Below are positions 25,862 through 43,090 of a stretch of DNA of 43,090 nt, piece by piece. A program made the translations under genes and the position numbers. Under the pieces are notes generated by a model. The model was not told the origin of the DNA. It did no database searches and saw only the letters and a program-made list of their open reading frames with translations. The DNA is from Ruegeria sp. PrR005 (GTDB taxonomy: Bacteria; Pseudomonadota; Alphaproteobacteria; Rhodobacterales; Rhodobacteraceae): assembly GCF_010500245.1 (NCBI RefSeq), contig NZ_JAAGOX010000018.1, forward strand, positions 1-43,090, written 5' to 3'. Position 1 is the stretch's first letter. Each line of letters opens with the position of its first letter.

Positions 25862-25892
25862 GAATGTGATTTCCTTGATCTCGATCACATTC
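25862..25892 (-). other. Hairpin at the 3' end of the rhodanese gene
   Basis: GAATGTGAT (25862-25870) and ATCACATTC (25884-25892) are a perfect 9-base inverted repeat that spans the stop codon of the rhodanese gene. There is no T-run, so it may stabilise or partly stop the transcript, or serve as a protein site. Confidence 0.4.
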
Positions 25893-26268
25893 CGGGATCG
25901 ACCGGCTCAATCCGGTCCCCCGCCCAGTCGGAAAAACCGCCCAGGTTATAGACCTCGGCATAACCCATGTCCTTGAGCAGCTTGCCTGCCAGCGCAGCCC
26001 GCCCGCCCGAGGCGCAATGCAGCACGATCACCCGATCCTTGCGCAGTTCAGGGTCGTGATATGGGGTTTCGGGATCGGCGCGGAATTCCAGCATGCCGCG
26101 CGGAATGTGATGCGAGCCCGCCGCGCGCCCGGCCTTTTCCAGTTCCGGCGCATCGCGAATATCGAGCAACAGCGCCCCACTCGCGACCAGTTCCTGCGCC
26201 CGTGCGCTGTCGATACGCGGCACCGCCGCGTTTGCGGCGGCCATCATGTCCTTGACTGTCAATGTCAT
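25885..26268 (-). CDS. Single-domain rhodanese-like sulfurtransferase
   Basis: A 127-residue single rhodanese domain. The active-site loop is HCASGGRA with the catalytic Cys at about residue 87; LLDIRDAPELEKAG and YNLGGFSDWA are family marks. Such proteins move sulfane sulfur between thiols in the cytosol. ATG 26268 has AGGAG nine bases upstream and is preferred to a GTG two codons earlier. The loop CASGGR, rather than the CRxGxR loop of thiosulfate:cyanide enzymes, fits persulfide-handling members, but the donor is unknown. Confidence 0.9.
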   Translation of the reverse strand: MTLTVKDMMAAANAAVPRIDSARAQELVASGALLLDIRDAPELEKAGRAAGSHHIPRGMLEFRADPETPYHDPELRKDRVIVLHCASGGRAALAGKLLKDMGYAEVYNLGGFSDWAGDRIEPVDPGM

Positions 26269-26371
26269 CTGCACTGTCTCCTGATAGGGTCCAGATCAGG
26301 ATAACATGCCGATTTCGGCAGACGTAAGTCAAATTTGCGCGGGCAAGTCCAATGGGTTGCCCGCGCGACGC

Positions 26372-29990: not shown

Positions 29991-31535
29991 CTATGGCTCG
30001 GGGGGCTGGGAGTAGACAATCGGTTTATCGGGAAACTTGGGTCCCTTTGGCGGCGGTGTCCACGGTGGATCGATCTCGTGCGGCTGAATGTGCTGTGGGT
30101 TGGCGAACCAGTCGAACGGGTTGTACTTGCCCTTTACCTGCGCAAGCGTGCCCAGATAGTCGGCCCAATAGGCGTTCGGGGCGTCCTTGATTCCCGGTCG
30201 GGGGTAATTCTGGTAAGACTGGCCATTCATGAACGGCGACATCAGCGCCATGAAATCATCCAGCCAGTCAATGTTCTTTTGATAGTCCTCCTGCCGGAAC
30301 CAGAAAACCTCGAGGAACAGGTTCATATAGACCTTGCGGTGGATGAAGGAATTCGGATCATCGCCTCGTGCGATTGCCCCGCCATACGGCTCCATACCGA
30401 TGTCATTCCACGGGTTCGGACATGTCGCCATGAAGTCGAACATTACCTTCCAGTCCGTCGCGTCGAGCATCTTGTCGATGTAGCCTGACTGTTTCTCCTC
30501 GAACACATAGTCGGGAGCGGACGGGATCGGCACCGGCTCGTCCAGCAGTCTGTGGTTCAACTCGACATAGCGTCCGGTCATCTGGATATCGAAATGTGTG
30601 CCGGGAAGGTCACGCAAAGGCTTGATCACCGCAGCACAGCTTTGCGCATCTCCATTGTATAGGCCGCGCATGTAGAAACGCGGCTGGTTATCGGCCATCA
30701 TCACCGCACACTGGTAACCCAGCTTTTCAAGCGCCGGGCCGACTATGTAGTCTTGCTGTAACATGACCAGTGCCGCCGGGGCATCGGCGGCGTCCCAGCT
30801 CAGCCCGAAACCGTACATGTCCCCCACTTCGTGAAGCTGGTACGTGATGCTGAGCAGGACGCCAAAGTTGCTCCCCATCCCGCCGCGCACGCACCAATAG
30901 AGATCGGAATTGGTCGTTTCATCGGCGATGACGATTCCGCCGTTCCACAACATCATTTCAAACTGAACGACATTGTCGCAATTCATCCCGAACTCGTGCG
31001 AGGTGAACCCGTATCCGCCGCCCTGCATATACCCGCCGACGCAGACATCGTCACAGCCGCCACCGGGCACGTGCAGGCCGAAATCGGACAGCACTGCGTT
31101 GAGACGGTGAAAGGACGTACCAGCGCCGACAATCGCGCGCCGCGTCACCCGGTCGACCCACACGGAATTGATCCGGCTCAGATCAATGACCATGCTGTTG
31201 TTGATCGAGAATCCTGCCGAACTGTGACCACCCGACCGGCAAACGGGCTTCAGATCGTGCGCAGACGCAAAGGCAAGGCAGTTCCGAACGTCGCTGTAAC
31301 ACTCGCAATAGACAATGATCTCGGGGAAGAATTGAAACTGTCGGTAGAACACCTGTCGCGCCGCGTCATAGTCGGGGTCACCGGGAACGACCACCTGCCC
31401 GCGAACCTGCCTTTCGAACATTCCTAGCTGATCATGTGTGAAAGGCGCGCGCCATTTCACTTGTTCGGAGGCGGCCGCGCTACGGGCACGAATGCGTACT
31501 TCCTTTGCGTGCTTGGCGGAACTACGTCTTTTCAT
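29991..31535 (-). CDS. FAD-linked oxidoreductase (BBE-like, bicovalent flavin type), divergent from the YcaO operon
   Basis: A 514-residue PCMH-type flavoprotein of the berberine-bridge/glucooligosaccharide oxidase class. The FAD-attaching His is in CRSGGHSSAGF (about residue 102) and the second attachment Cys is probably in PGGGCDDVCVGGY, followed by MQGGGYGFTSHEFGMNCDNV. The C-terminal BBE segment NAYWADYLGTLAQVKGKYNP is present. Such enzymes oxidise alcohols, amines or C-H bonds with oxygen. The N-terminus is unusually basic (MKRRSSAKHAKEVRIRAR) and is not a Sec signal. GGAGAGG precedes the ATG by eight bases. It is divergent from YcaO across a 105-base gap, so it may be a tailoring enzyme of the RiPP system; this is context only. 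Confidence 0.88.
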   Translation of the reverse strand: MKRRSSAKHAKEVRIRARSAAASEQVKWRAPFTHDQLGMFERQVRGQVVVPGDPDYDAARQVFYRQFQFFPEIIVYCECYSDVRNCLAFASAHDLKPVCRSGGHSSAGFSINNSMVIDLSRINSVWVDRVTRRAIVGAGTSFHRLNAVLSDFGLHVPGGGCDDVCVGGYMQGGGYGFTSHEFGMNCDNVVQFEMMLWNGGIVIADETTNSDLYWCVRGGMGSNFGVLLSITYQLHEVGDMYGFGLSWDAADAPAALVMLQQDYIVGPALEKLGYQCAVMMADNQPRFYMRGLYNGDAQSCAAVIKPLRDLPGTHFDIQMTGRYVELNHRLLDEPVPIPSAPDYVFEEKQSGYIDKMLDATDWKVMFDFMATCPNPWNDIGMEPYGGAIARGDDPNSFIHRKVYMNLFLEVFWFRQEDYQKNIDWLDDFMALMSPFMNGQSYQNYPRPGIKDAPNAYWADYLGTLAQVKGKYNPFDWFANPQHIQPHEIDPPWTPPPKGPKFPDKPIVYSQPPEP

Positions 31536-31640
31536 AACTGCGACCTCTCCACTAGTGAGGGAAATGAAAACTCAAATCAGGATTGCAAACAGAAACCTAA
31601 TCCCTTCCCTCTCCCCGAATAATGAGCGTATAGTTTGTTT
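31536..31640. promoter_or_regulatory. Divergent promoter region between the flavoprotein and YcaO genes
   Basis: This 105-base gap is clearly richer in A and T than its surroundings, as expected for a two-way promoter region. No convincing -35/-10 pair or operator palindrome could be fixed by eye, and the YcaO gene lacks a strong ribosome site. Confidence 0.4.
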
Positions 31641-32936
31641 ATGCCAACCGCGTGTAACGTTTCTTTTGTTAAAAAGTGCTTTTTGTCCGGCACACATCGA
31701 ACGGCCGATCCCACGGATACGTGGGCGCGAATCAAGCCGCTTTTCCCGGACATCGGAATTACTCGGGTCGCGGATGTCACCGGCCTGGATTGCATCGGAA
31801 TTCCTGTGTGCAATGCAATTCGCCCGAATGCCCGATCTTTGTCTGTCTCCCAGGGGAAAGGGGTCGGATTACCACAGGCGCGGGTTTCGGCGGCGATGGA
31901 GGCGATAGAACTCTTTCACGCCGAGAGAAAACTGAATGACGTTGAACAGGCCAGTTTCACACGATTGGGACGTGGCAACGCGGTCGATCCGCGCGACCTG
32001 TCTTTGCTTCGGGACGATACCCAGGAATTGCCGGACATTCCCATTCATTGGGTGCAGGGCCATGACTTGATCAATGGTCGCCCGGTTCGCGTGCCCCGCG
32101 ATCTTGTCAGCTGTGATCTGCGCCGCAATGCTCCGACGGATGGAATCTTTCTGACCAGTTCCAACGGGCTTGGCGCAGGAAACACAAAAGAAGAGGCCAT
32201 TCTTCACGCGGTCTGCGAAGTCGTCGAACGCGACGCGACATGCCTGCATCAGGCCGCGAGCGCCAGGTTCGGCGGCGAACCGGCCCTGGTCGATCCAGAT
32301 ACGATAGACGACCCCCTGTGCCTGTGGTTGATGGAGCGGATCACAAGCGCCGAAATTGACCTGCATGTGTGGGTTCAGCTTGGCGACTTGCCGATACCCT
32401 CTTTCGGATGTGCGATTTCGGACCGTCACGGCGGCAAGTTTCCCGGGGCGCCGATTGGCACATTCCAGGGATATGGATGCCATCCCGACCGGGGTATCGC
32501 CCTCTCACGCGCGATCACCGAAGCCGTCCAATCCCGGCTGACCTATATCGCCGGGGCGCGCGACGATCTGTTTCGCGACGATTACGCCAGCATCCAGACA
32601 GCGCGCAATCGCCGTGGCTGGCTTTCCTGGCTGGACGGCAAAGGGCCGATGATGGATTTTCGCCACTCGCCAAGCTGGGCAAGCGACGCCGTGTCTTTCG
32701 ACCTGGAGACAATGCTTGAAATGCTCGCACGTCAGGGCTTTGACCAGGTCATATCGGTTGACCTCACTTTGAGCAGGATCGGCATTCCGGTTGTCAAAGT
32801 CATCATTCCGGGACTGGTCGAACCGACGATTGGAAACCAGGCGCCAAGAGGCGAAAGGGTCGACGGCTTTCTTGAACGGTTGAACCTGATCATGGCGGGG
32901 ATGAACGGCGATCATCGCATGGGGTACCCGGCATGA
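31641..32936 (+). CDS. YcaO-family cyclodehydratase/thioamidase
   Basis: A 431-residue YcaO protein, an ATP-using enzyme that activates peptide-bond oxygens. The ATP-site motifs are visible: SQGKGVGLPQARVSAAMEA then IELFHAE, GLGAGNTKEEAILHAVCEVV with ERDA, and ALSRAITEAVQSR. The C-terminus ends HRMGYPA without the PxPxP of azoline-forming YcaOs, consistent with the TfuA-partnered thioamide group. ATG 31641 is preferred; a TTG two codons earlier is possible. Its stop overlaps the TfuA start as ATGA. With TfuA it probably replaces a backbone carbonyl oxygen with sulfur in a ribosomal peptide. A probable substrate with an NHLP-type leader is encoded at 38926-39855. Confidence 0.93.
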   Translation: MPTACNVSFVKKCFLSGTHRTADPTDTWARIKPLFPDIGITRVADVTGLDCIGIPVCNAIRPNARSLSVSQGKGVGLPQARVSAAMEAIELFHAERKLNDVEQASFTRLGRGNAVDPRDLSLLRDDTQELPDIPIHWVQGHDLINGRPVRVPRDLVSCDLRRNAPTDGIFLTSSNGLGAGNTKEEAILHAVCEVVERDATCLHQAASARFGGEPALVDPDTIDDPLCLWLMERITSAEIDLHVWVQLGDLPIPSFGCAISDRHGGKFPGAPIGTFQGYGCHPDRGIALSRAITEAVQSRLTYIAGARDDLFRDDYASIQTARNRRGWLSWLDGKGPMMDFRHSPSWASDAVSFDLETMLEMLARQGFDQVISVDLTLSRIGIPVVKVIIPGLVEPTIGNQAPRGERVDGFLERLNLIMAGMNGDHRMGYPA

Positions 32937-34021
32937 GCGACATTGTCGTCTTCTTGGGGCCGACGCTGTCCCGTCAGGAAGCCGGGCGTGTGCTGGACGC
33001 GCATTTCCTGCCGCCGGTTTCGCAGGGCGACATAATCTCGGTTGCGAATGACAATCCCAAGGCTATCGGGATCATTGACGGATATTTTCAACTGGTGCCC
33101 GCCGTCTGGCACAAGGAGATCCTGTACGCGCTGGACAAAGGCATTCCGGTCATCGGCGCGGCCAGCATGGGCGCGCTGCGGGCCGCCGAACTGGATGCGT
33201 TCGGCATGGTGGGTGTCGGGCGCATCTATCAATGGTACCGCAGCGGATTCCTGGAGGCCGATGACGAAGTCGCGGTCATCCATTCGCCTTTCGAGATCGG
33301 CCACCGCCCCCTGAGCGAAGCAATGGTCAATATCCGTGCCACCCTTGATCTTGCGGTTCGCAACAATACCCTGTCGAAGCAGAGCGCCATAGCCCTGTTG
33401 GAGGCCTGCGCGGCGACACCCTATTGGGAAAGAAGCTTTGACAGGCTTTTGGCCGATGCAAAAAGGCTGGGACTATCCGACAGCGAGTTGACAGCGCTGG
33501 AACGCTGCGAACGGGTGGATCAGAAACGGAGCGATGCTCTGGAAATGCTGGAACGGATGGCCCAGAGCCCGGCCGCTGGAGCAGCCGCGCCGGATTTCCG
33601 GTTCAACCGGACCAGCAAGTTCGACCGGCTCATGGATCAGGATACCTGTCTAGCGCGCAATGGGGATGCCCGCATAACCATCAGCGTATTGGCGGACTTT
33701 TACCGGCTGCACGGCAACAGGCTGTTTCCTGGCGCGGGTTCATTGGCGCTGGCCCAGGCTGGTGGCAGGGCAAACGACGTTGTTGACGCCTTGCGAGCAG
33801 AGGGACGTCTGGACGTCGTCCTCAACACTGCTGTGGCCTGTGATCAGAGCGACGGCCTGCGCCCCTGTGAGGGAGACGACAGGGTCGTGCTGGAGCAGTA
33901 TTGCCGTCAGGCAGGTTTGAGACCGGATCATACGATCGGTGAACTTGGACAGGCTGTTGGACTGAATGACAGCGAAAGATTTTTTGAACGGTTGCATCGT
34001 TTCACTTTGAGGAGCCCGTAA
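32933..34021 (+). CDS. TfuA-like protein, partner of YcaO
   Basis: A 362-residue TfuA-family protein. The N-terminal core has IVVFLGPTLSRQEAGRVLDA and the diagnostic GAASMGALRAAELDAFGMVG. The region after about residue 215 is specific to longer members. TfuA was first known from trifolitoxin synthesis, and TfuA pairs with YcaO in thioamide formation (methanogen McrA, thioviridamide-type peptides), where it is thought to supply or help deliver sulfur. The start ATG overlaps the YcaO stop, a sign of coupled production in equal amounts. The methyltransferase gene follows after five bases. Confidence 0.93.
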   Translation: MSDIVVFLGPTLSRQEAGRVLDAHFLPPVSQGDIISVANDNPKAIGIIDGYFQLVPAVWHKEILYALDKGIPVIGAASMGALRAAELDAFGMVGVGRIYQWYRSGFLEADDEVAVIHSPFEIGHRPLSEAMVNIRATLDLAVRNNTLSKQSAIALLEACAATPYWERSFDRLLADAKRLGLSDSELTALERCERVDQKRSDALEMLERMAQSPAAGAAAPDFRFNRTSKFDRLMDQDTCLARNGDARITISVLADFYRLHGNRLFPGAGSLALAQAGGRANDVVDALRAEGRLDVVLNTAVACDQSDGLRPCEGDDRVVLEQYCRQAGLRPDHTIGELGQAVGLNDSERFFERLHRFTLRSP

Positions 34022-34026
34022 TACGC

Positions 34027-34914
34027 ATGACTGCCCGAGCCGACACCGCCGGTCCCGACACCAACAGTGCTGCCACCACCCGGGAGCTTGTCTATCGATT
34101 TCACCAGACGTTGGATGGATCCTTTCCCGAGGCGCCCTCGACTCTGGGGCCGAACAGTTACATCCTTTTATGCTCGATCGCGCGGCAGCCGACCAACGCG
34201 GGACAGCCGCCGGTCATCCTGGATCTTGGCTGCGGTTCCGGACGGCTGTTGCAGATGCTTGTGGAACTGGGATTGCCACAGGAAAACCTGCACGGGGTCG
34301 ATTTCGTGCCTGAGCAGATCGCCCGTGCAAGACAACGTCTGGGTTCTGCCGCTATCAAACTTGCCTGCGCGCAATCTCAGGATCTGCCGTTCGGGTCCGG
34401 GTCGATCGACCGCATTGTCATCCATATGGGCTTGGCAACCATGCTGCCGCTAGAGCGTACACTGTCCGAAATCAACCGCGTCCTGACCCCTGGCGGAAAA
34501 CTTGCCGTCATCGTTGATGGCCAGGCGCGACCGGACACGATCGACCAGATGTATGCAAAGATCATCTATCAAGCCGTCTCTGAAGAGCAACCAGACCTGA
34601 TTTTACATGCCACCGGCGACAAGAGAGCCTGCGATCCCGTGGCTTTGTGTGACCTGGCCGACCGGCATACCGATCTGGTCTTGGAAGGTGAGGTCAAACC
34701 TTTTGAGCTTTTGCTGAGAATGGCGTGTTGGGAGTATCTGAGCTTTCTCGAAGGCGAATATCTTTGGGAACTCTTGAGCAACTCTGGGCGAGACCGTGTC
34801 CGAACTGCGGTCCTGAAGCTGTTCGAGGCGCACAAGAACGAACCGGCGACGATCCCGCTGGCGATGCAGTTGATGGTGTTTGAAAAGCGTGCAAACCCGC
34901 CTGCGGCAGAGTAG
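34027..34914 (+). CDS. Class I SAM-dependent methyltransferase of the YcaO-TfuA operon
   Basis: A 295-residue methyltransferase. SAM motif I is VILDLGCGSGRLLQML (about residues 65-80), the acidic loop HGVDFVPEQIARAR follows, and DLPFGSGSIDRIVIHMGLA and LTPGGKLAVIVDG are motifs III-IV. It lies five bases after tfuA with GAGGAG upstream, so it is the third gene of one operon. It may methylate the modified peptide, on N, O or S, but a small-molecule role cannot be excluded. It ends 10 bases before the convergent cyclase gene, with no obvious terminator. Confidence 0.9.
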   Translation: MTARADTAGPDTNSAATTRELVYRFHQTLDGSFPEAPSTLGPNSYILLCSIARQPTNAGQPPVILDLGCGSGRLLQMLVELGLPQENLHGVDFVPEQIARARQRLGSAAIKLACAQSQDLPFGSGSIDRIVIHMGLATMLPLERTLSEINRVLTPGGKLAVIVDGQARPDTIDQMYAKIIYQAVSEEQPDLILHATGDKRACDPVALCDLADRHTDLVLEGEVKPFELLLRMACWEYLSFLEGEYLWELLSNSGRDRVRTAVLKLFEAHKNEPATIPLAMQLMVFEKRANPPAAE

Positions 34915-34924
34915 ACGCCGGCCC

Positions 34925-37900
34925 TCAATCCTCGCCGAATGGTGACAGCAGCGGCGACGCCCACGGCAGTGTTTCGACATCCAGCCCCATGGTTCGCGCC
35001 GAGGAAACGATGAAACGACGTTCTCCGGCAAGAGAGAAGTCGGACGCGAGCTTGTACGCTGCGGCAAGGCAACCGGTGGCGGCGTCTGTATCTTGATCCC
35101 GTTCCAACCAATGTCTGGCGCATTCGACCAAGGTCCGAATTCTGGCACCAAGCCCCATGGACAGCCCGGCCCGCGCGCTTTGGTCCGCTTCCCTAAGCCA
35201 TGCCAACGGATCGGGGCCAAAACCACGATCGGCCAGTTGATCCAGTTTGGAACGCGCTTCGGACGACAAGGTCAACCTGTGTCTCAAGAACCTCGCGACA
35301 CACAGATACGTCAGCCCATGTTCGTGGTCCGTTTCGCCGCCTTGCAACATGTCCAAATGTTCGGAAAGGGTGGCAATGGCGGCGACGTCATCGCCCAGGG
35401 ATGCCTTGGCGGCAGCGAGATGCGGCAAGGTCTCATAGGGAATGGCATCTCCACCCAGGGTGCGCCGCTCTCGCATGGCACGTTCATAGGCTTCGATGGC
35501 AAGATCCAGCTTCCCGCACTCATGATGGACACGGCCGATGAAATGGTTTGCAAACCAGACCCCCGGCCGATCCCCAATGGAACTGGAAACCTTGAGCGCA
35601 CGTTCCAGGACCCCCAGTGCCTCGTCGAACTCGCCAACGGTAAACAGATCAATCCCGAGGTTTCCAATCGGATAGGCCAGTTCCTGTTTGTTACCGAGTT
35701 GTTCAAGGATAGGAATCGCGCGCCGGTTGTTTTCGATGGCTTGCCTGTAAGTGCCCAGAAGCCCATGCGCCGAAGCAATGCCAGCCAAGGAAATCGCAAT
35801 CAGGTTCTGGTCTCCAAGGCGCTCGCCAACCGCCAGGGATTGCCGATAGAATTCCTGCGCGCGGTAGTAATTTCCAGAATACTTGTACGTTCCAGCAAGC
35901 ATGCTGAGCGACTTGCCGACCATCTCCTGGTCATTTGCGCGGCGCGCGATGGCCCAGGCCAGTTCCAGCCGCTCTCGCGCCCTGGCGACATCCCCCGATT
36001 GGCGCAGAACGTCACCCAAAACGATCAGCATGTCGATTTCTTGTCTGGGATCTTCGGCCGCGAGAATGCCGGAAAGGCCGTGTTCCAGTACCTGAACAGC
36101 CTCTTCCCAATCTCCTGTCAGCGCCAGCAAGGCCCCCAGGCGCGCACTGATCGAAACTTGCAGATCAAGCTCGATACTGTATTTCAAAAGCCGCCGATAA
36201 AGATAGATCGCCCTGGGTGCATCCAGCTTTTGGTGTGCCATATCGCCGGCCGCCCGCAGATAGTGCTGCGCCTCTTCCGGCATTTCACCCTGTTCAAAGT
36301 GATAGGCCAGAGCCTCCATCCGGTCGAGGTCATCCTCTGCGGACAAACCCTCCAACGTTTGCGCGGCTTGGCGATGCAGGTTTCTGCGCACCACAACCAG
36401 TTGCATGTCATAGATCGCATTCCGCAGCATGGCATGCCGAAACCGATAGTGACCGGGCGCGTGTTCCACCCAGATCTGTTGCGCCTGCCCCTCTTCCAAC
36501 GCGTCGGCGATCATCCGGTCATCATTGAGCATCTTCCGCAAAAGCCGAGCTCCGAATTCATCGCCCAGAACGGCGGCGACCTGGATCACGGATTTCAGCC
36601 GCCCTGGCAAACGGTCTATGCGCGCCATGAGAATACCGCTCAACCCCTGAGGCAGGTGCGCCACAGCGTCCGGCGCCAACTCCACACGCGCGTTCACCCC
36701 CGTGCCCCGATGCAAGAACCCGCCCGAGGAACTCAACGTCAAAATCAGTTGTTCGAGGTAGAGTGGATTCCCGGCGCTCTTGTCCCGGAGATACTCGACC
36801 AGGCGCTGAGACACAGGGGCACCCAAGGCCCGCTCGGCGATCTGACGCACGCCACTCGGGCTCAAGCTGTCCAGTCGGATCATCGCTTGAAGGTTTTCAC
36901 GCCCGAACGGCATGTCGGGAACATTGCCGTTGTCGTCAAGGCGGCAACTGGCAAGCAAGGCGACCGGAAAGGCCGACTGGCTTGAAATCAAATTGAGCAT
37001 TTGTTTGGACGCCGTGTCGAACGTGCCCACGTTTTCCGCAATCAGCATCAACGGATTGCGCCCGGCCAAGGCCCGCAATAACGCAATTATCCCACGGAAA
37101 GTGTTTCGACTCCGAAGCTCGGGCCCGACCTGCGCATATGTTGAGTCCGACCAATGTACATTCAGGAGTGCCGCGATAAAGGATCTGGTAAACTCCAGTT
37201 CTTCGCGCAGCTCGGTGTCCGGGGTTTGATCACAGAGATTGTCAAACTCGGAGAGAAAAGCAGATCGCCTTTCCGCCTCGTCCTTCAATGCGCTCAATCT
37301 GAAACCCTCTTCCAGAGTTCTGAGGAAAGGGCCAAGCGGCCTCTCCAGAACAGTTTCCGGAATCAGGTTGATGACGACCGCTGATGTGCCCTGGCTCGCA
37401 TACGACTCCTTCAACCGTTGGTGGACGACCGAAAGCAGGGTGCTTTTCCCAGATCCTGCCCCCCCGGTCACAACCGCCGCTCCGCCCCCGCCGGAGTCGA
37501 GGATCGCCTGAACAGCCCCAAGAAGTTCACTGATCTGCTCGTCGCGTTCGACGATATCGCCAGAGGTGGTCACCTGGGCATGGATGTCGCGTCTTTCCCC
37601 CAGCACATAGACTGGCTGTGGGTCCGAGAACCCCTTCAACTCCAGATTGCCGACGAAATCAAAGTGAAAACGCCCTAGCGCATGATCCCGGGTGGAGTTG
37701 TCCAGCAGAAGCTGCCCGGGTTCTGCCGTAGAGGCCAGCCGGGCCGCAAGATTCACGTATCGGCTGGCACAAGTATAGACTTCGTGACGCCGCGACCCGG
37801 AAAATCCCGCATGCGACAGGCCATAGGTCAATCCGGCGCTGGCGGATGTTCCCAGATGCCCCAAAACATGAACGGCGAACTCTATGGCGCGCCCGACATC

Positions 37901-38824
37901 ATCCTCTGTCGCAATCGGCGCCCCCCAAAATATCAGCGCGGTGCACCCTTTATCACCATCCGTGATGCCATTGATGAAACCGCCATACAGATCATGAGCC
38001 TCGAAGAGGGTGGTAACGAACTCCTCCAGCTCTTCCTTCGGTCGGTCCAGATGCACAAACAGTGTCGCTGTCCAGCGAAACTGCCCGTATCCTTCGGCGA
38101 TTGCCACCGTATCGGGGTAGAAATCGGTGACAAGTGGATCGCTGGTTTCCGGTACCGGTGACAAAGGAAGCGGTGCCAGAAGGTTTTCGGCATCGTCCAC
38201 AATTCGGGCTGCCCCGCCGTGAACGCTTTTGGTTTTTGTCGCCGCTGAGAACCTTTCCGCGGTGGCCGAGGCCGCAATCAACTCGCCCGGCCCGGCCAGT
38301 TGCCGAACCTTGGCGGCATCGACGATCGGGGCTCCATCGAAGTAATAGATATGTCGCCGGCAAGAGCCGTCCCGCAGAATGCGCCAGTTCATTCGACCGT
38401 CGGCGATCCCAATTCGGGCGTTGATGGTGAATGTGCCGAAGCGCGTTTTGTAAATGTGTCGGGACCGGATGGTCTGGCGCATCTCCCACCCGGCGGCGAG
38501 GCCGCGGTTGATGGCAGATCCCAGTCCCGCCGTTTCCGGAAAGGCCGCAAGAAAGCCGTCACCAGTGTAATGGGCAACAAATCCGCCATGTTCGTATACG
38601 CAGGAGGTCATCGGTTCGAATATGGCGCGGATGATACTGGCCAGGATTTCCGCACCCTGAGGGCCATGAATGCTCAGCGCGTCGGTGACCTGGGTAAAGC
38701 CCGACGTGTCTACGTCGATGACAAGCGCCTGAAAATACCCAGCCGATCGCCCGGCTTTGTGTTGGTCGAGAATGAAAGTGGGACAGAGCGGCCGGATCGG
38801 GACCGAAATTGGGCTTGATTTCAA
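34925..38824 (-). CDS. Large class III cyclase / AAA-type ATPase / TPR signalling protein
   Basis: A 1299-residue cytoplasmic protein with the architecture of soluble adenylyl cyclases: cyclase domain 1 (about 30-200), cyclase-like domain 2 (about 240-430), ATPase (about 435-800) and TPR repeats (about 830-1200). Domain 1 has the metal Asp in DTSGFT (D39) and D89 in YTGDGFLAAF. Domain 2 (LFVHLDRPKEEL, ITDGDKGCTALIFWGAP) looks degenerate. Walker A is TGGAGSGKST near residue 455. From memory, cyclase fusion proteins recur beside NHLP-leader TOMM precursors. It lies between the YcaO operon (convergent) and the precursor gene (101 bases upstream, same strand), so co-transcription with the precursor and a control role are plausible. 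Confidence 0.9.
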   Translation of the reverse strand: MKSSPISVPIRPLCPTFILDQHKAGRSAGYFQALVIDVDTSGFTQVTDALSIHGPQGAEILASIIRAIFEPMTSCVYEHGGFVAHYTGDGFLAAFPETAGLGSAINRGLAAGWEMRQTIRSRHIYKTRFGTFTINARIGIADGRMNWRILRDGSCRRHIYYFDGAPIVDAAKVRQLAGPGELIAASATAERFSAATKTKSVHGGAARIVDDAENLLAPLPLSPVPETSDPLVTDFYPDTVAIAEGYGQFRWTATLFVHLDRPKEELEEFVTTLFEAHDLYGGFINGITDGDKGCTALIFWGAPIATEDDVGRAIEFAVHVLGHLGTSASAGLTYGLSHAGFSGSRRHEVYTCASRYVNLAARLASTAEPGQLLLDNSTRDHALGRFHFDFVGNLELKGFSDPQPVYVLGERRDIHAQVTTSGDIVERDEQISELLGAVQAILDSGGGGAAVVTGGAGSGKSTLLSVVHQRLKESYASQGTSAVVINLIPETVLERPLGPFLRTLEEGFRLSALKDEAERRSAFLSEFDNLCDQTPDTELREELEFTRSFIAALLNVHWSDSTYAQVGPELRSRNTFRGIIALLRALAGRNPLMLIAENVGTFDTASKQMLNLISSQSAFPVALLASCRLDDNGNVPDMPFGRENLQAMIRLDSLSPSGVRQIAERALGAPVSQRLVEYLRDKSAGNPLYLEQLILTLSSSGGFLHRGTGVNARVELAPDAVAHLPQGLSGILMARIDRLPGRLKSVIQVAAVLGDEFGARLLRKMLNDDRMIADALEEGQAQQIWVEHAPGHYRFRHAMLRNAIYDMQLVVVRRNLHRQAAQTLEGLSAEDDLDRMEALAYHFEQGEMPEEAQHYLRAAGDMAHQKLDAPRAIYLYRRLLKYSIELDLQVSISARLGALLALTGDWEEAVQVLEHGLSGILAAEDPRQEIDMLIVLGDVLRQSGDVARARERLELAWAIARRANDQEMVGKSLSMLAGTYKYSGNYYRAQEFYRQSLAVGERLGDQNLIAISLAGIASAHGLLGTYRQAIENNRRAIPILEQLGNKQELAYPIGNLGIDLFTVGEFDEALGVLERALKVSSSIGDRPGVWFANHFIGRVHHECGKLDLAIEAYERAMRERRTLGGDAIPYETLPHLAAAKASLGDDVAAIATLSEHLDMLQGGETDHEHGLTYLCVARFLRHRLTLSSEARSKLDQLADRGFGPDPLAWLREADQSARAGLSMGLGARIRTLVECARHWLERDQDTDAATGCLAAAYKLASDFSLAGERRFIVSSARTMGLDVETLPWASPLLSPFGED

Positions 38825-38925
38825 CGCTTCTTGATCCTGTTTGACGGTATTTCATCCTCCGATCACATCCGATGACGTGAACATCAAGCCCCACGTTCAA
38901 TGTCCCAGTTCCACTAAGGCAACCT

Positions 38926-39855
38926 TCAAGACTTGGTTTTGCCGGGCTTCCTTTGACCTTTTTTCGCTGCGGGTTTGGACGCAGGCTCATCCTCGGCGAC
39001 GCGGCGCCCTTCTGCTGTGCGGCGCCCTTCGGAAGTCGAGGGGGTGGCAGGCTGTTCCCCGGCCGGGGGTTCCTCGGCCACACGACGGCCCTCGGACGAG
39101 CTGAGGTCCTCGGACACGCGCCGCGCCGCGCTGTCACTGTCCGCCCCCCCGGGTTCGACAACCCGCCGCCCTTCCGCGACACGGCGGGCCTCAGCATCTG
39201 CGGTCCCTTCGTCCCAGTCATCAACTACGCGCCGTCCCTCGGCCACCCGGCGCGCAACGGCGTCCGAGGCTTCGAAATCGGCCTCATCAACGATACGTCT
39301 GGCTGCGCCGACCCGGCGCGCCGCAGAACCCGCGATCATTGCGTCTTCGTCTTCGGCGACGCGCCGGCCCTCGGCGACACGCCGTGCCTCGCCCACACGC
39401 CGTGCTTCGCCCACACGTCGTGCATCACCGACGCGGCGCGCCTCGGCGACCCGGCGCGCTGCGCTGTCCTCGATGGCGGGGACCCCGGAGAAGGCCACTT
39501 CTCCATCGCCTCCAACAATTGGAGGATGACCGGTTTCACCGTCTGCCCATGCCTTCAGGACAGAGTCGATCTTTGGCTTTGGGGGCAGTGGCAACACCAG
39601 CCGGTCTAAACGATTGAACGCCGAACCGCTCATCGACCATTGGGTCGCGCCATCCTCCACGACGACTTCGGTACCTGCCGGTACCGCCAGCCCCGCGTCT
39701 TTCAGCGCGCTTGCAGGATCAGCAATCAGTTGCGCCTTGAACGCCTTGTCCGTCCAGGCTCGCGCTATGATCTTGGAGATGCGCAGGGACCACAGGTGCC
39801 ATTCTGCACAATCCAAAGGGTGTAGAATGTCATGATCAAAATCGCCTTGTGTCAT
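38926..39855 (-). CDS. Probable RiPP precursor: nitrile-hydratase-like leader with sixteen RRV-type core repeats
   Basis: A 309-residue protein with two unlike halves. Residues 1-93 match the nitrile-hydratase leader peptide (NHLP) type: IIARAWTDKAFKAQLIADP, then ALKDAGLAVPAGTEVVVED and RLVLPLPPKP. After a linker (94-132) come sixteen (A/G)-R-R-(V/I/T)-x-x motifs, residues 133-288. Six are strictly head to tail (133-168); from 157 a 22-residue module appears, two motifs plus a ten-residue acidic spacer. The tail is Lys-rich. The only Cys is C16 in the leader, and the hexads lack Cys, Ser and Thr. ATG 39855 has AAGGGAG nine bases upstream; a longer reading to 39906 lacks support. It is the probable substrate of YcaO-TfuA at 31641-34021. 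This is inference; no exporter or leader peptidase is seen in the window. Confidence 0.82.
   Translation of the reverse strand: MTQGDFDHDILHPLDCAEWHLWSLRISKIIARAWTDKAFKAQLIADPASALKDAGLAVPAGTEVVVEDGATQWSMSGSAFNRLDRLVLPLPPKPKIDSVLKAWADGETGHPPIVGGDGEVAFSGVPAIEDSAARRVAEARRVGDARRVGEARRVGEARRVAEGRRVAEDEDAMIAGSAARRVGAARRIVDEADFEASDAVARRVAEGRRVVDDWDEGTADAEARRVAEGRRVVEPGGADSDSAARRVSEDLSSSEGRRVAEEPPAGEQPATPSTSEGRRTAEGRRVAEDEPASKPAAKKGQRKPGKTKS
38992..39459 (-). repeat. RRV-motif repeat array of the precursor core
   Basis: The array encodes residues 133-288. Bases 39352-39459 hold six contiguous 18-base units; further inward the unit is 66 bases (22 codons), with modules starting at residues 157, 179, 201 and 223 and irregular copies to 288. 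Codons differ between units: the two arginines are CGC CGG, CGC CGC, CGA CGT, CGG CGT, CGG CGT and CGG CGC in the first six. Protein identity with silent-site variation shows the motif is kept by selection on the peptide. Confidence 0.9.
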
Positions 39856-40212: not shown

Positions 40213-42138
40213 CTAGTTGGCCACCAGCACTTCGGCCTTGAACCCGCCGTTGCGCCAGCGTGACAGGGCGGTCGCGAAACTGGGCCCCGGCAATCCGTCC
40301 AGGGCACCCGCATAATATCCGGCGGCCTGCAACCTTTCCTGAATGGCCTTAACGGTTTCCGGCGACCATTCATTCGTAGCAGTCGTCAATTGCTGCAAAA
40401 GCGTTCCGCGATCCTCGGCGACGCCCCGCAATAGCATATTGGCGGCTTGGTCAAAATCCCGGGAAACTCCACGTCCCTCATCCAGCAAGATCGCCGCCGC
40501 ACGATAGCCCTCATGCTCGCCATCACGCGCCGCCCGCAGGAAATAGTCCAACGCCAGTTCCGGCGTGTCGATCATGCCGTCCTGGGCCAGAACCCCGAGG
40601 TTGAAGACGGCCTTCGCCGATCCAACCTCGGCGGCCCTGCGCAAAAGGGAAATGGCCCGTTCAATGTCTTTCTCGCCTCGGTCGCCCTGGAACAGGGATA
40701 CCGCCAGATTGATCATCGCATCCGAACTGCCAGCCTCGGCCGCACGCTCGTACAAGGCAAAAGCGGCCTCCGTGTCCTGCGGGATGCCATTCCCGCTTTC
40801 AGTCAGTTGCGCGAGGCTTACCATCGCACGCAAGTCCCCGCGTTCGGCAGCACTGCGATACAGCTGAACCGCTCGCCGCAAATCCCCGGATGCGGCGGTC
40901 GCCCGCGCCAGCAGCGCGGTGTAATGAGGCAGATCTGGCGACTGAACGGATGCGGCAGAGCAGGCTTGTATCGCGGCCAGGGTGTTCTGGGCCAGACGGT
41001 CGAACGGAACACCGGGAACCGATGCGGTCGCATCACGGGGATGTGTCGCCAATCTCTCGCATATCGCCTCGGGCGTGCTGTCTTCGGCATTTGGCAGCAA
41101 CTCGAGCAGCCGCCGGGCTTCGGGTGCCCGTTCGCCTTGGGGAAAGCGTTCCAGATAAAACTCCAGCAACGGCCGCATTCTGCTTCGTCTGGCCAAGGTC
41201 CAGAGACGCTCGGCCTCTGCCTTTTCATCGCGAAAATCCAGAGCACGGGTCCGCGTGCCGGTTTGCAAAAAGGCCAACACGTCCTCGGCATGCGGGCCCT
41301 GGGGGTAGCGATCTATGTAGAGCTGCATCAACTCATCGTTCTTCGCCTCGATGGCGACCTGCCACAGCATGGTTTCCTCGGACACAGTCACCGGGTTGCG
41401 GTCGAACTGGAACGCGCGCGTAAGCGAGGAATTGTCCCAGGGGATCTGGCGGCCTCCGGTCGCGGCCAGAACATCGCGCCGGACAGCGATCATCAACTCG
41501 GACACATCCTGTCCTGGTGTGTAGATATGGTTGAGCAGCGCTTCTGTGAAAAAGCTGTTCCGCCCCGTGCCGTCATAAGCCACGTTGTCGGGTTGGGTCG
41601 CATAGGCGAACATGAAATTGGCAGAAGTTCCCACCCTGGCAAGACCGCTGCCTACTTCGGGTAGCTTGGCCCCGGCCATACCGAACGGATTGTCCCGGCA
41701 GGCGTCCAGAAAAACGAGTTTGAGACCTTTTGACCGTTCGAGCGCTTCGACGACACGCGCCAGTGGCACGGTCTGGTTTTGCAGATCCTCGGGTGAAGAG
41801 ATCCGCGCATCGGTCGGCACCAGGTAATTCTGCCCGTTTATCTGAAACCCATGCCCGGCGTAGAAAAACAAGGCGACATCGGCCGTTTCCGCCGCCTCGC
41901 TGAATTCTTCTATCGCTTCTCGTGTATCCGCCTGGCTGTAGTCGCTGCCCATGAGGACGTCAAAACCCAGCCCCTCAAGCGCCACGGTCAAATCAAGCGC
42001 GTCGTTCCTGGGGTTCTTCAGCGGTTCGATATGGCGGTACGACGAATTGCCCAGAACAAAGGCAACCCTCGTCTCGGCCCAAGAACCGGACGTCATCAAG
42101 AACAGCAGACCGGCGAATGCCGCAATCAGGGTTCGCAT
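40213..42138 (-). CDS. Secreted caspase-like (C14) peptidase with Sel1 repeats
   Basis: A 641-residue protein. A Sec signal peptide (MRTLIAAFAGLLFLMTSGSWA, cut near residue 21) leads to a caspase p20-type domain with H96 in FFYAGHGFQ and C147 in FLDACRDNPFG. A middle region of about 150 residues follows, then Sel1-like repeats (GDLRAMVSLAQLTESGNG, EAGSSDAMINLAVSLFQGD and others, about 440-590) and a C-terminal stretch (ETVKAIQERLQAAGYYAGAL) that looks like a peptidoglycan-binding domain. Bacterial relatives of this fold often cleave after Arg or Lys. The ATG at 42138 has GGGGAAG upstream and lies 10 bases after the stop of the MBG gene, so they form an operon. It probably acts in the periplasm. 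Confidence 0.9.
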   Translation of the reverse strand: MRTLIAAFAGLLFLMTSGSWAETRVAFVLGNSSYRHIEPLKNPRNDALDLTVALEGLGFDVLMGSDYSQADTREAIEEFSEAAETADVALFFYAGHGFQINGQNYLVPTDARISSPEDLQNQTVPLARVVEALERSKGLKLVFLDACRDNPFGMAGAKLPEVGSGLARVGTSANFMFAYATQPDNVAYDGTGRNSFFTEALLNHIYTPGQDVSELMIAVRRDVLAATGGRQIPWDNSSLTRAFQFDRNPVTVSEETMLWQVAIEAKNDELMQLYIDRYPQGPHAEDVLAFLQTGTRTRALDFRDEKAEAERLWTLARRSRMRPLLEFYLERFPQGERAPEARRLLELLPNAEDSTPEAICERLATHPRDATASVPGVPFDRLAQNTLAAIQACSAASVQSPDLPHYTALLARATAASGDLRRAVQLYRSAAERGDLRAMVSLAQLTESGNGIPQDTEAAFALYERAAEAGSSDAMINLAVSLFQGDRGEKDIERAISLLRRAAEVGSAKAVFNLGVLAQDGMIDTPELALDYFLRAARDGEHEGYRAAAILLDEGRGVSRDFDQAANMLLRGVAEDRGTLLQQLTTATNEWSPETVKAIQERLQAAGYYAGALDGLPGPSFATALSRWRNGGFKAEVLVAN

Positions 42139-42148
42139 CACTTCCCCA

Positions 42149-43090
42149 TCACAGATCCGAAACCCGCGAAAGCTGGATACCGACCGTTTCGAGGGAGTCG
42201 GCCACAGTTGTGATTGTCGCACGCTGAATCCCCGCCAGTTCGGGGTCATCGACCCGGACCAGAGCGATCGCCTTGCGGATCTCACCTGCCGCATTGTCCA
42301 GTGCCGTTCTGGCCTCGGCCAGCGCATCACGGCGGATCGCCTCACGTTCGGCATCAGTCGTTGCCGTGGCAAGGCGCCGTTCCGCCCGTTCGCGGCTCCG
42401 ATCGATGTCGGACCGCGCATTGCGGATGATGGTTGCCACGTTCTCCATACCCGGTGGCAGATCCGCCGTGATCTCGTCAAGCTCACCGGCAAAACTGTTC
42501 AATGCATCCGACAAACAGGCGAGGTAACGGCTGACATCGTTGCTGCCCTGCTGGCAGCTTTCGGCGGCAACCACCAACCGGTCCGAGAGGACCCGGACAT
42601 CTCCCAATGTCTTCAACGCTGCCTGCTTGGTCAGCCCGGTCGGACTCGTACCACCACCAATTGTCGTCCCTTCGGTGAACAGGACACGAATGTCATCTGT
42701 CGGGTTCGGCAGGCCAAAGCCACCCACTGAGGGCGGCCGCGGCACGGTATCGGCTGGCGCGTCCACGGTCATCGAACCGTCAACATAGGTGATATCGTAG
42801 TTCTCCAGCCCGGTGCCTGCGGCCGAGGTTACAGCAATCGCAAATGGACTATCCACAGCCAGAGCGCCGGTTGCACTGCCCGGACTGGTCAACTGAGCTG
42901 TGTTCACTCTGTCGCCTTCGACGATCAGACCGGACACCGAGAACTCGGTTCCTTGGAACACGAACTCTTCACCCTGGATCTTGGTCTGGTTCAGCGCCGT
43001 CACCACCAGCGGCGCGGGCGTCACCGTCAGCGCCCCGTCGACATAGGAGATCGCGTAGTTCTCCAGCCCCGTGCCCAGCGCGTCCGAGGC
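42149..43090 (-). CDS. C-terminal part of an MBG-repeat surface/secreted protein (N-terminus off window)
   Basis: The frame is open to the window edge and gives 313 residues before the stop at 42149. The first part has two copies of an MBG-type beta module, seen in GTGLENYAISYVDGALTV and GTGLENYDITYVDGSMTV, with APLVVTALNQTKIQGEEF between them. The rest is a helical, charged segment (about residues 140-310) rich in Ala, Arg, Asp and Glu (RSDIDRSRERAERRLATAT). MBG modules are typical of large filamentous haemagglutinin-like exoproteins. The helical C-terminus is not a standard sorting signal. It is 10 bases upstream of the caspase gene, as often seen for such exoproteins and accessory peptidases. 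Confidence 0.82.
   Translation of the reverse strand, partial: ASDALGTGLENYAISYVDGALTVTPAPLVVTALNQTKIQGEEFVFQGTEFSVSGLIVEGDRVNTAQLTSPGSATGALAVDSPFAIAVTSAAGTGLENYDITYVDGSMTVDAPADTVPRPPSVGGFGLPNPTDDIRVLFTEGTTIGGGTSPTGLTKQAALKTLGDVRVLSDRLVVAAESCQQGSNDVSRYLACLSDALNSFAGELDEITADLPPGMENVATIIRNARSDIDRSRERAERRLATATTDAEREAIRRDALAEARTALDNAAGEIRKAIALVRVDDPELAGIQRATITTVADSLETVGIQLSRVSDL

Follow-up and report, generated by a model that had tools for sequence, protein, structure and literature searches.

The window analysed here, the whole of contig C18 (43,090 bases) in the 5.07-Mb genome of the marine-type bacterium Ruegeria sp. PrR005 (G000), contains a cassette of six named genes at about 29,991-39,855 that is common to this genome and that of Ruegeria sp. 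XHP0148 (G001). We favour, at somewhat better than even chances, the reading that the cassette encodes a protein-modifying YcaO-TfuA system and, as its substrate, a 309-residue, multi-core protein that is thioamidated along an array of Arg-Arg-Val (RRV) motifs. Chemically, its enzymes probably exchange backbone oxygen for sulfur in a partner protein with 16 such motifs. A preliminary description of the locus had proposed the array as a multi-core YcaO substrate; enzyme families, leader and conservation make this the best reading, whereas the modification itself is something that we infer.

The enzyme pair and the RRV array protein

The genes form two facing groups. On the plus strand, ycaO (31635-32936; 433 residues, TfuA-partner type; PF02624, E 3.3e-79) overlaps by 4 bp with tfuA (32933-34021; 362 residues; PF07812, E 2.3e-46), and a class I S-adenosylmethionine (SAM)-dependent methyltransferase gene (34027-34914; 295 residues; PF08241, E 3.3e-19) follows, so that Pfam bears out the three-gene operon named previously. 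On the minus strand, the array gene lies at 38926-39855, matching the 309-residue protein with an NHLP-type (nitrile hydratase leader peptide) leader and a repetitive C-terminal half that had been placed 4 kb off on the other strand. Downstream of it by 101 bases, and co-directional, is the gene of a 1299-residue nucleotide-cyclase/AAA_16 ATPase/tetratricopeptide-repeat (TPR) protein (34925-38824; Pfam AAA_16, TPR and Guanylate_cyc), which resembles TOMM_kin_cyc and occupies the 4-kb gap to the methyltransferase gene. A FAD-linked oxidase gene (29991-31535, minus strand; FAD_binding_4 and BBE, Pfam E 4.4e-27 and 6.7e-06) is divergent from ycaO and part of the same inserted cassette. The preliminary description named its genes correctly but overlooked these last two.

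YcaO enzymes activate amides in an ATP-dependent manner, and some make azolines or amidine rings. The window YcaO lies closer to the thioamidation model TIGR03266 (239 bits, below the cut-off of 365) than to the azoline-type SagD model (129 bits), and the TfuA scores 221.8 bits against NF033432, whose cut-off is 235.2. Pairing of TfuA with YcaO for thioamide formation, cited in the preliminary description, is thus consistent with the nearest profiles, both at scores below their cut-offs. The nearest solved structure to the YcaO is the MJ1094 YcaO (6pe3/6peu, E 1e-37), and the TfuA matches PDB 6xp8 (E 2.9e-42). No TfuA match other than that of the window was found in this genome. A second YcaO is encoded at C6:7893-8816 (L062); it is SagD-like at 108 bits, below that model's cut-off of 219, and was rejected as a TfuA partner, the single TfuA match being in the window. 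Against PHROGs, neither the array protein nor the YcaO gave a match.

The leader of the array protein comprises residues 1-130 (39466-39855, minus strand). Profile matches are numbered on a 326-residue open reading frame (ORF), and all other residues on the 309-residue protein. Residues 44-87 of the ORF match the NHLP leader model TIGR03793 (E 3.8e-10, 39.5 bits, under the curated cut-off of 50.9), and residues 42-85 match NHase_alpha, PF02979 (28.2 bits, cut-off 27.2). In an AlphaFold model built from two sequences (mean pLDDT 56.1), leader residues ~20-90 have a pLDDT of about 63-87, with helices predicted at 16-53 and strands at 63-90. Foldseek ranks first 8tb1, an NMR structure of a proteusin precursor of the ribosomally synthesized and post-translationally modified peptide (RiPP) class (E 2.3e-3, prob 1.00), followed by nitrile hydratases; with the whole array-protein model it returned nothing at E ≤0.001. 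An NHLP-type leader, as first described, is therefore supported by profile and by predicted fold, short of the curated cut-off. An LX4L motif occupies residues 83-88, with Leu83 replaced by Val in XHP0148. Gly-Gly type cleavage sites are expected ahead of the core in NHLP/proteusin precursors, and a GG pair occurs at residues 115-116, where XHP0148 has AG. The single Cys of the protein is residue 16 and the nitrile hydratase metal site is absent, on which ground we rejected a nitrile hydratase subunit. According to the relevant passages of PMC12455567, 8tb1 is MprE7, whose LX4L motif is required for the action of its YcaO and in which a Val swap rescues product formation.

The array itself spans residues 131-290 (38986-39465, minus strand) and comprises 16 [AG]RR[VIT] units: 14 RRV, one RRI and one RRT. 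Across 20,000 shuffles of these residues, the mean was 0.27 units and the maximum 4. Within the 160 residues there are 32 Arg, 36 Asp+Glu and 15 Ser/Thr, with no Lys and no Cys; only 2/16 [AG]RR[VIT]xx units contain Ser/Thr. Because Cys is lacking throughout and Ser/Thr from 14/16 units, azoline formation seems improbable, and a thioamide ahead of Arg suggests itself. That the enzymes produce azolines or an amidine ring instead is very improbable: YcaO enzymes do such chemistry elsewhere and the SagD model does match, but TIGR03266 scores far higher, and a TfuA is present alongside an array so poor in the residues concerned.

Between the window and XHP0148 the array protein is 86% identical, with all 16 Arg-Arg pairs retained. 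By the Nei-Gojobori method, the motif codons carry 31 synonymous and 2 non-synonymous changes (omega 0.022), compared with 29 and 27 in the remaining array codons (omega 0.196; Fisher p 2.1e-5) and an omega of 0.064 in the leader. The repeats are thus maintained as protein while synonymous sites drift. The array has a G+C content of 73% (66% for the whole gene) and an antisense ORF of 184 residues is also open, as might be expected if the array only mirrored simple, GC-rich repetition in the DNA and meant nothing at the protein level. We give this explanation next to no chance: the motif-codon changes, CGG/AGG swaps among them, refute it as far as two genomes allow. The RRV repetition noted earlier therefore stands, on unit count, shuffles and protein-level conservation alike.

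An unmodified array is a rather unlikely alternative, in which the repeats would form a charged, perhaps helical binding scaffold where the cyclase/ATPase/TPR protein, or some other partner, could dock, with the NHLP domain serving as a folded head only. The near balance of charge, the variable unit spacings (6, 6, 6, 6, 6, 16, 6, 16, 6, 16, 6, 15, 12, 21, 6) and a helix modelled with low confidence at residues 129-229 would suit it, as would the position of the array gene just upstream of the cyclase gene, on the same strand and opposite to ycaO. It accords less well with NHLP domains, which in the passages of PMC12455567 act as leaders of modified peptides, or with a cassette that is shared as one unit.

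Distribution and insertion of the cassette

Among five members of the genus (G000-G004) compared by DNA search, the cassette occurs in the window genome and XHP0148 only, and the entire cassette is syntenic between the two. In G003 and G004 the left flank runs into an unrelated gene, and in G002 the caspase gene of the right flank stands beside unrelated genes. Since the flanks meet other genes in these three genomes, the segment at ~29.9-40.2 kb is an insertion common to two of the five. The FAD-linked oxidase gene is present with the other cassette genes in XHP0148 and absent beside RidA in G003 and G004. Five cassette genes have a G+C content of 57-60%, against 61-64% in the flanks, and the genes for the RRV protein, YcaO, TfuA, methyltransferase and cyclase are present or absent together in the genomes compared.

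The RRV protein is rare. A protein search found a full-length relative in 1/146 other genomes, along with 24 shorter leader-like matches, 18 of which carry the C[TS]LCSC metal site of nitrile hydratases; the other six are without assignment. A pattern scan of Genome Taxonomy Database (GTDB) r220 contigs found one locus, again that of XHP0148; the pattern demands exact matches to two 7-residue stretches, and distant kin may escape it. Among 72,556 plasmid records, no relatives were found at E 1e-5. The co-occurrence of RRV proteins with ycaO-tfuA, proposed earlier as a check, is thus limited to one syntenic lineage of two genomes. Three leader-like matches are clustered at about 361-364 kb of G121:C2 (L009, L023 and L029), possibly a true NHLP precursor cluster. 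In G136, a repeat ORF (L021) weakly matches the RRV array (E 8.1e-4, residues 134-169), probably by chance.

Directly upstream of the array gene, at 40213-42492, lies a gene for a caspase-like protein (Peptidase_C14) that also contains Sel1 repeats and a peptidoglycan-binding domain. Caspase-like peptidases often cleave after Arg/Lys, and the position of this one beside an Arg-Arg array could be meaningful or coincidental. We rejected it as part of the cassette, which it flanks: G002 carries the gene, beside unrelated genes, without the cassette. Also outside the cassette, at 25885-26274, is a protein judged from its sequence to be rhodanese-like and a possible sulfur donor. There are no tRNA genes in the window.

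Repeat arrays and cyclase-like proteins at other ycaO-tfuA loci

TfuA was searched for in 394 genomes of the family (14 with a match), 385 of the class (21) and 398 of the phylum (14), in samples that overlap. The family and class searches yielded 35 new ycaO-tfuA neighbourhoods, some ending at a contig edge and one (L108) just 4.6 kb long, which we compared with 36 control stretches, hand-picked in the same genomes at round coordinates on contigs with TfuA loci. With the window and XHP0148 excluded, a tandem-repeat scan at a score of 18 found arrays at 9/35 loci and 0/36 controls (p 9e-4). Five thresholds were compared, the others giving 10/35 against 1/36 (scores of 10 and 12), 9 against 1 (15) and 9 against 0 (20). 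Without L125, whose reading frame is unsure, arrays remain at 8/35 loci (p 0.002). The third sample, from the phylum, had arrays at 0/16 loci and 1/16 controls; pooled over all samples, arrays occur at 9/51 loci and 1/52 controls (p 0.007). Other repeat arrays beside ycaO-tfuA were thus borne out by the first samples and not by the third.

The repeated units are SGAKV (L049 and L051), SGARV (L050 and L052), AGRWAVTP.. (L107), DDSQRHAANFIGTTP (L112), DLVGRS (L114), SRAVMA (L118) and IAAGQIAGG (L125, frame unsure); a GMNV repeat at L120 reached a scan score of 13. Units are 5-15 residues long, and in 8/9 counted arrays (not L125) each contains Arg or Lys, which is suggestive, not significant. 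All counted arrays except L125 run in the direction of ycaO-tfuA, although at L107 the opposite frame scored equally and the sense was set by the gene caller and an RGPDGVLY stretch. Among array proteins beside ycaO-tfuA, two or more kinds of N-terminus occur ('LFGRVVDD..' and 'RGADGRLY..'). On two Paracoccus plasmids the same 'LFGR' domain, again N-terminal, is joined to two or three copies of an RGMS-type unit, which the scan could not reach. A loose 'G-x-DG-x-[LVY]-Y' pattern before the cores occurs at 18/41 loci and 7/36 controls, with several spurious matches on both sides; the window match falls in an unrelated ORF and the RRV protein has none, so the pattern was rejected as a shared motif and serves as a lead. 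Two very long adjoining arrays (periods of 10 and 25 residues, frame unsure) lie beside ycaO-tfuA at L125 11482-15228. LFGR-type proteins also adjoin adenylate cyclases on Rhizobium plasmids (L081 and L082), where the stretch retrieved has no annotated ycaO.

Arrays fall into one part of the YcaO phylogeny. A midpoint-rooted tree of 55 YcaO proteins, from which L058 was excluded by hand and for which L120 and L062 gave no match in the feeding search, splits in two (SH-aLRT 92). Arrays occur in 13/33 rows of the set that includes the window and in 0/22 of the other (p 4e-4). Removing the window and XHP0148 leaves 11/31 array rows (p 1e-3), and further removing L125 and the two Paracoccus rows (L031 and L032), whose array label was assigned by eye, leaves 8/28 (p 6e-3). 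The label requires 6 changes on the tree against a shuffled mean of 11.8 (0/500 as low), a figure to which near-copies contribute. As arrays are confined to one YcaO set, those of the first samples and the null of the third can both hold. Dissimilar arrays within the same set are what one would expect of cores more than of a single binding surface, which tells against the scaffold alternative. In its favour, the SGARV tail of L050 matches the Pfam pentapeptide repeat (E 1.3e-5), a structural fold, and some arrays at ycaO-tfuA loci could accordingly have a structural role.

The same tree bears on a further alternative, namely that YcaO-TfuA acts on a target elsewhere, whether a small peptide that escaped annotation or, as with McrA, a housekeeping protein, and that the RRV protein and cyclase form a separate module inserted next to it. 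No array was found in 20/33 rows of the window's set, and four of these (L106, L109, L110 and L030) carry a short RGADGRLY-type ORF instead. Housekeeping targets have precedents, McrA being thioamidated by YcaO-TfuA (PMC5589413) and a YcaO being tied to uL16 thioamidation in Pseudomonadota (PMC13063428), as stated in passages of these papers. Set against this, the cassette leaves little space outside its six genes: ORFs longer than 45 residues occur only upstream of the array gene, and three that were profiled matched no family, a search that would miss small peptides of unknown type. The RRV protein, ycaO, tfuA, methyltransferase and cyclase genes, moreover, come and go jointly. We consider this alternative quite unlikely, slightly more so than an unmodified scaffold.

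In the first two samples, ycaO-tfuA is often accompanied by a cyclase/ATPase/TPR protein. With a profile built on seven proteins and a line set at 50 bits, a cyclase-like protein occurs at 18/35 other ycaO-tfuA loci and 0/36 controls; without the six seed loci the count is 12/29, and one control (L131) reaches 48 bits. The third sample gave 4/16 loci against 1/16 controls. The 1299-residue window protein matches TIGR03903 at E 2e-41 over profile positions 340-1045 of 1267. Against the same model, proteins of L106, L107, L112, L114, L117, L118, L055 and L030 score 202-453 bits, all under the cut-off.

Proposed mechanism and relation to known systems

In the mechanism that we propose, the folded NHLP domain (residues about 16-110) would act as a docking leader. 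YcaO would activate backbone amides with ATP, TfuA would deliver or position sulfide, and the 16 [A/G]-Arg-Arg-Val units would acquire backbone thioamides, most likely, by analogy with the A/G-Pro-Arg core of thiovarsolin, at the small residue preceding the first Arg. The methyltransferase, and perhaps the FAD oxidase, may further tailor the product, which could be cleaved between units or left whole. Pfam assigns none of the six cassette proteins to a protease or transporter family, and the product may therefore remain intact within the cell; nor is there a heme oxygenase family (VarO-type) among them. The cyclase/ATPase/TPR protein may serve as a sensor or regulator of the system.

Several observations weigh against this reading. 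The leader match falls under its curated cut-off, and the low-confidence helix modelled in the array fits a structural role too. The array gene is on the strand opposite to ycaO and 4 kb from the methyltransferase gene, unlike the clear-frame arrays elsewhere. RRV proteins occur in one lineage only, so their co-occurrence with ycaO-tfuA counts as one event. Within the window's YcaO set the rows without an array outnumber those with one, and the branch of the window YcaO is long, XHP0148 being its one close neighbour with an array; given that branch and the midpoint root, its placement is approximate. The third sample, 13/16 of whose loci come from family f174, held no arrays. No product of the system is known.

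The nearest known system is a multi-core YcaO-TfuA substrate of the thiovarsolin type; the window departs from it in having an NHLP leader, 16 RRV units and a cyclase. In Streptomyces varsoviensis (varA/varY/varT/varO), as in the window, YcaO and TfuA are encoded together with repeated short Arg-containing cores: according to passages of PMC6511847, the A/G-P-R core occurs in five repeats and the thioamide lies between Pro and Arg. The thiovarsolin system also has the heme oxygenase VarO, and those passages mention no NHLP leader or cyclase, whereas the window adds a methyltransferase and a cyclase and has no known product. MprE7, modified by the YcaO MprC, shares with the array protein a folded nitrile-hydratase-like leader and an LX4L motif; however, MprC forms azolines at Ser/Thr/Cys (PMC12455567, in part), and the RRV array lacks Cys and takes up 160 residues of a 309-residue protein. 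By profile, the closest characterised enzyme pair is that which thioamidates the McrA glycine (TIGR03266/NF033432), although its target, as given in passages of PMC5589413, is a single Gly of an archaeal housekeeping enzyme and the window proteins score under both curated cut-offs. The uL16 system likewise links a bacterial YcaO to a backbone thioamide in a protein rather than a small peptide, and differs in its housekeeping ribosomal target, as described in parts of PMC13063428. The TOMM (thiazole/oxazole-modified microcin) kinase/cyclase fusion model TIGR03903, whose name is tied to TOMM systems, has the same cyclase-ATPase-TPR architecture as the 1299-residue protein, but the latter is a distant relative, scoring 141.9 bits where the cut-off is 705.75. 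The name TfuA comes from the trifolitoxin gene tfuA of Rhizobium, in a cluster for a small peptide antibiotic, unlike the window.

In the parts consulted of a 2021 survey (PMC8120280), every thioamidated RiPP that TfuA-YcaO pairs were known to produce at that time came from Actinobacteria, and Nif11-like precursors, with a different leader type, occurred in TfuA clusters of Ruegeria and others; its main text contains no word starting with 'repeat'. In the open-licence literature, covered as titles and abstract openings among the matches listed and without supplements, we found no RRV array and no repeat-tailed YcaO-TfuA precursor in Alphaproteobacteria. As some related cassettes bear other repeat arrays, the system seems to represent a mode of decorating repeat-tailed proteins that has been little described. 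Tentatively, and with odds well short of even, we suggest a wider, undescribed alphaproteobacterial class in which YcaO-TfuA would thioamidate fast-changing arrays on carriers (NHLP, 'LFGR' and 'RGADGRLY'), usually beside a basic residue, coupled to a cyclase/ATPase/TPR switch resembling soluble adenylyl cyclase, the product then being an intracellular protein with a regulatory or scaffold function and not a secreted antibiotic.

If the favoured reading is true, a folded leader bearing an array of 16 thioamide units, tied to a cyclase in an alphaproteobacterium, would represent a new scale of thioamidation and perhaps a new purpose for it. The recurring arrays, short, repeated and unlike one another yet accompanied by homologous enzymes, could serve as test substrates that reveal what a TfuA-YcaO pair recognises.

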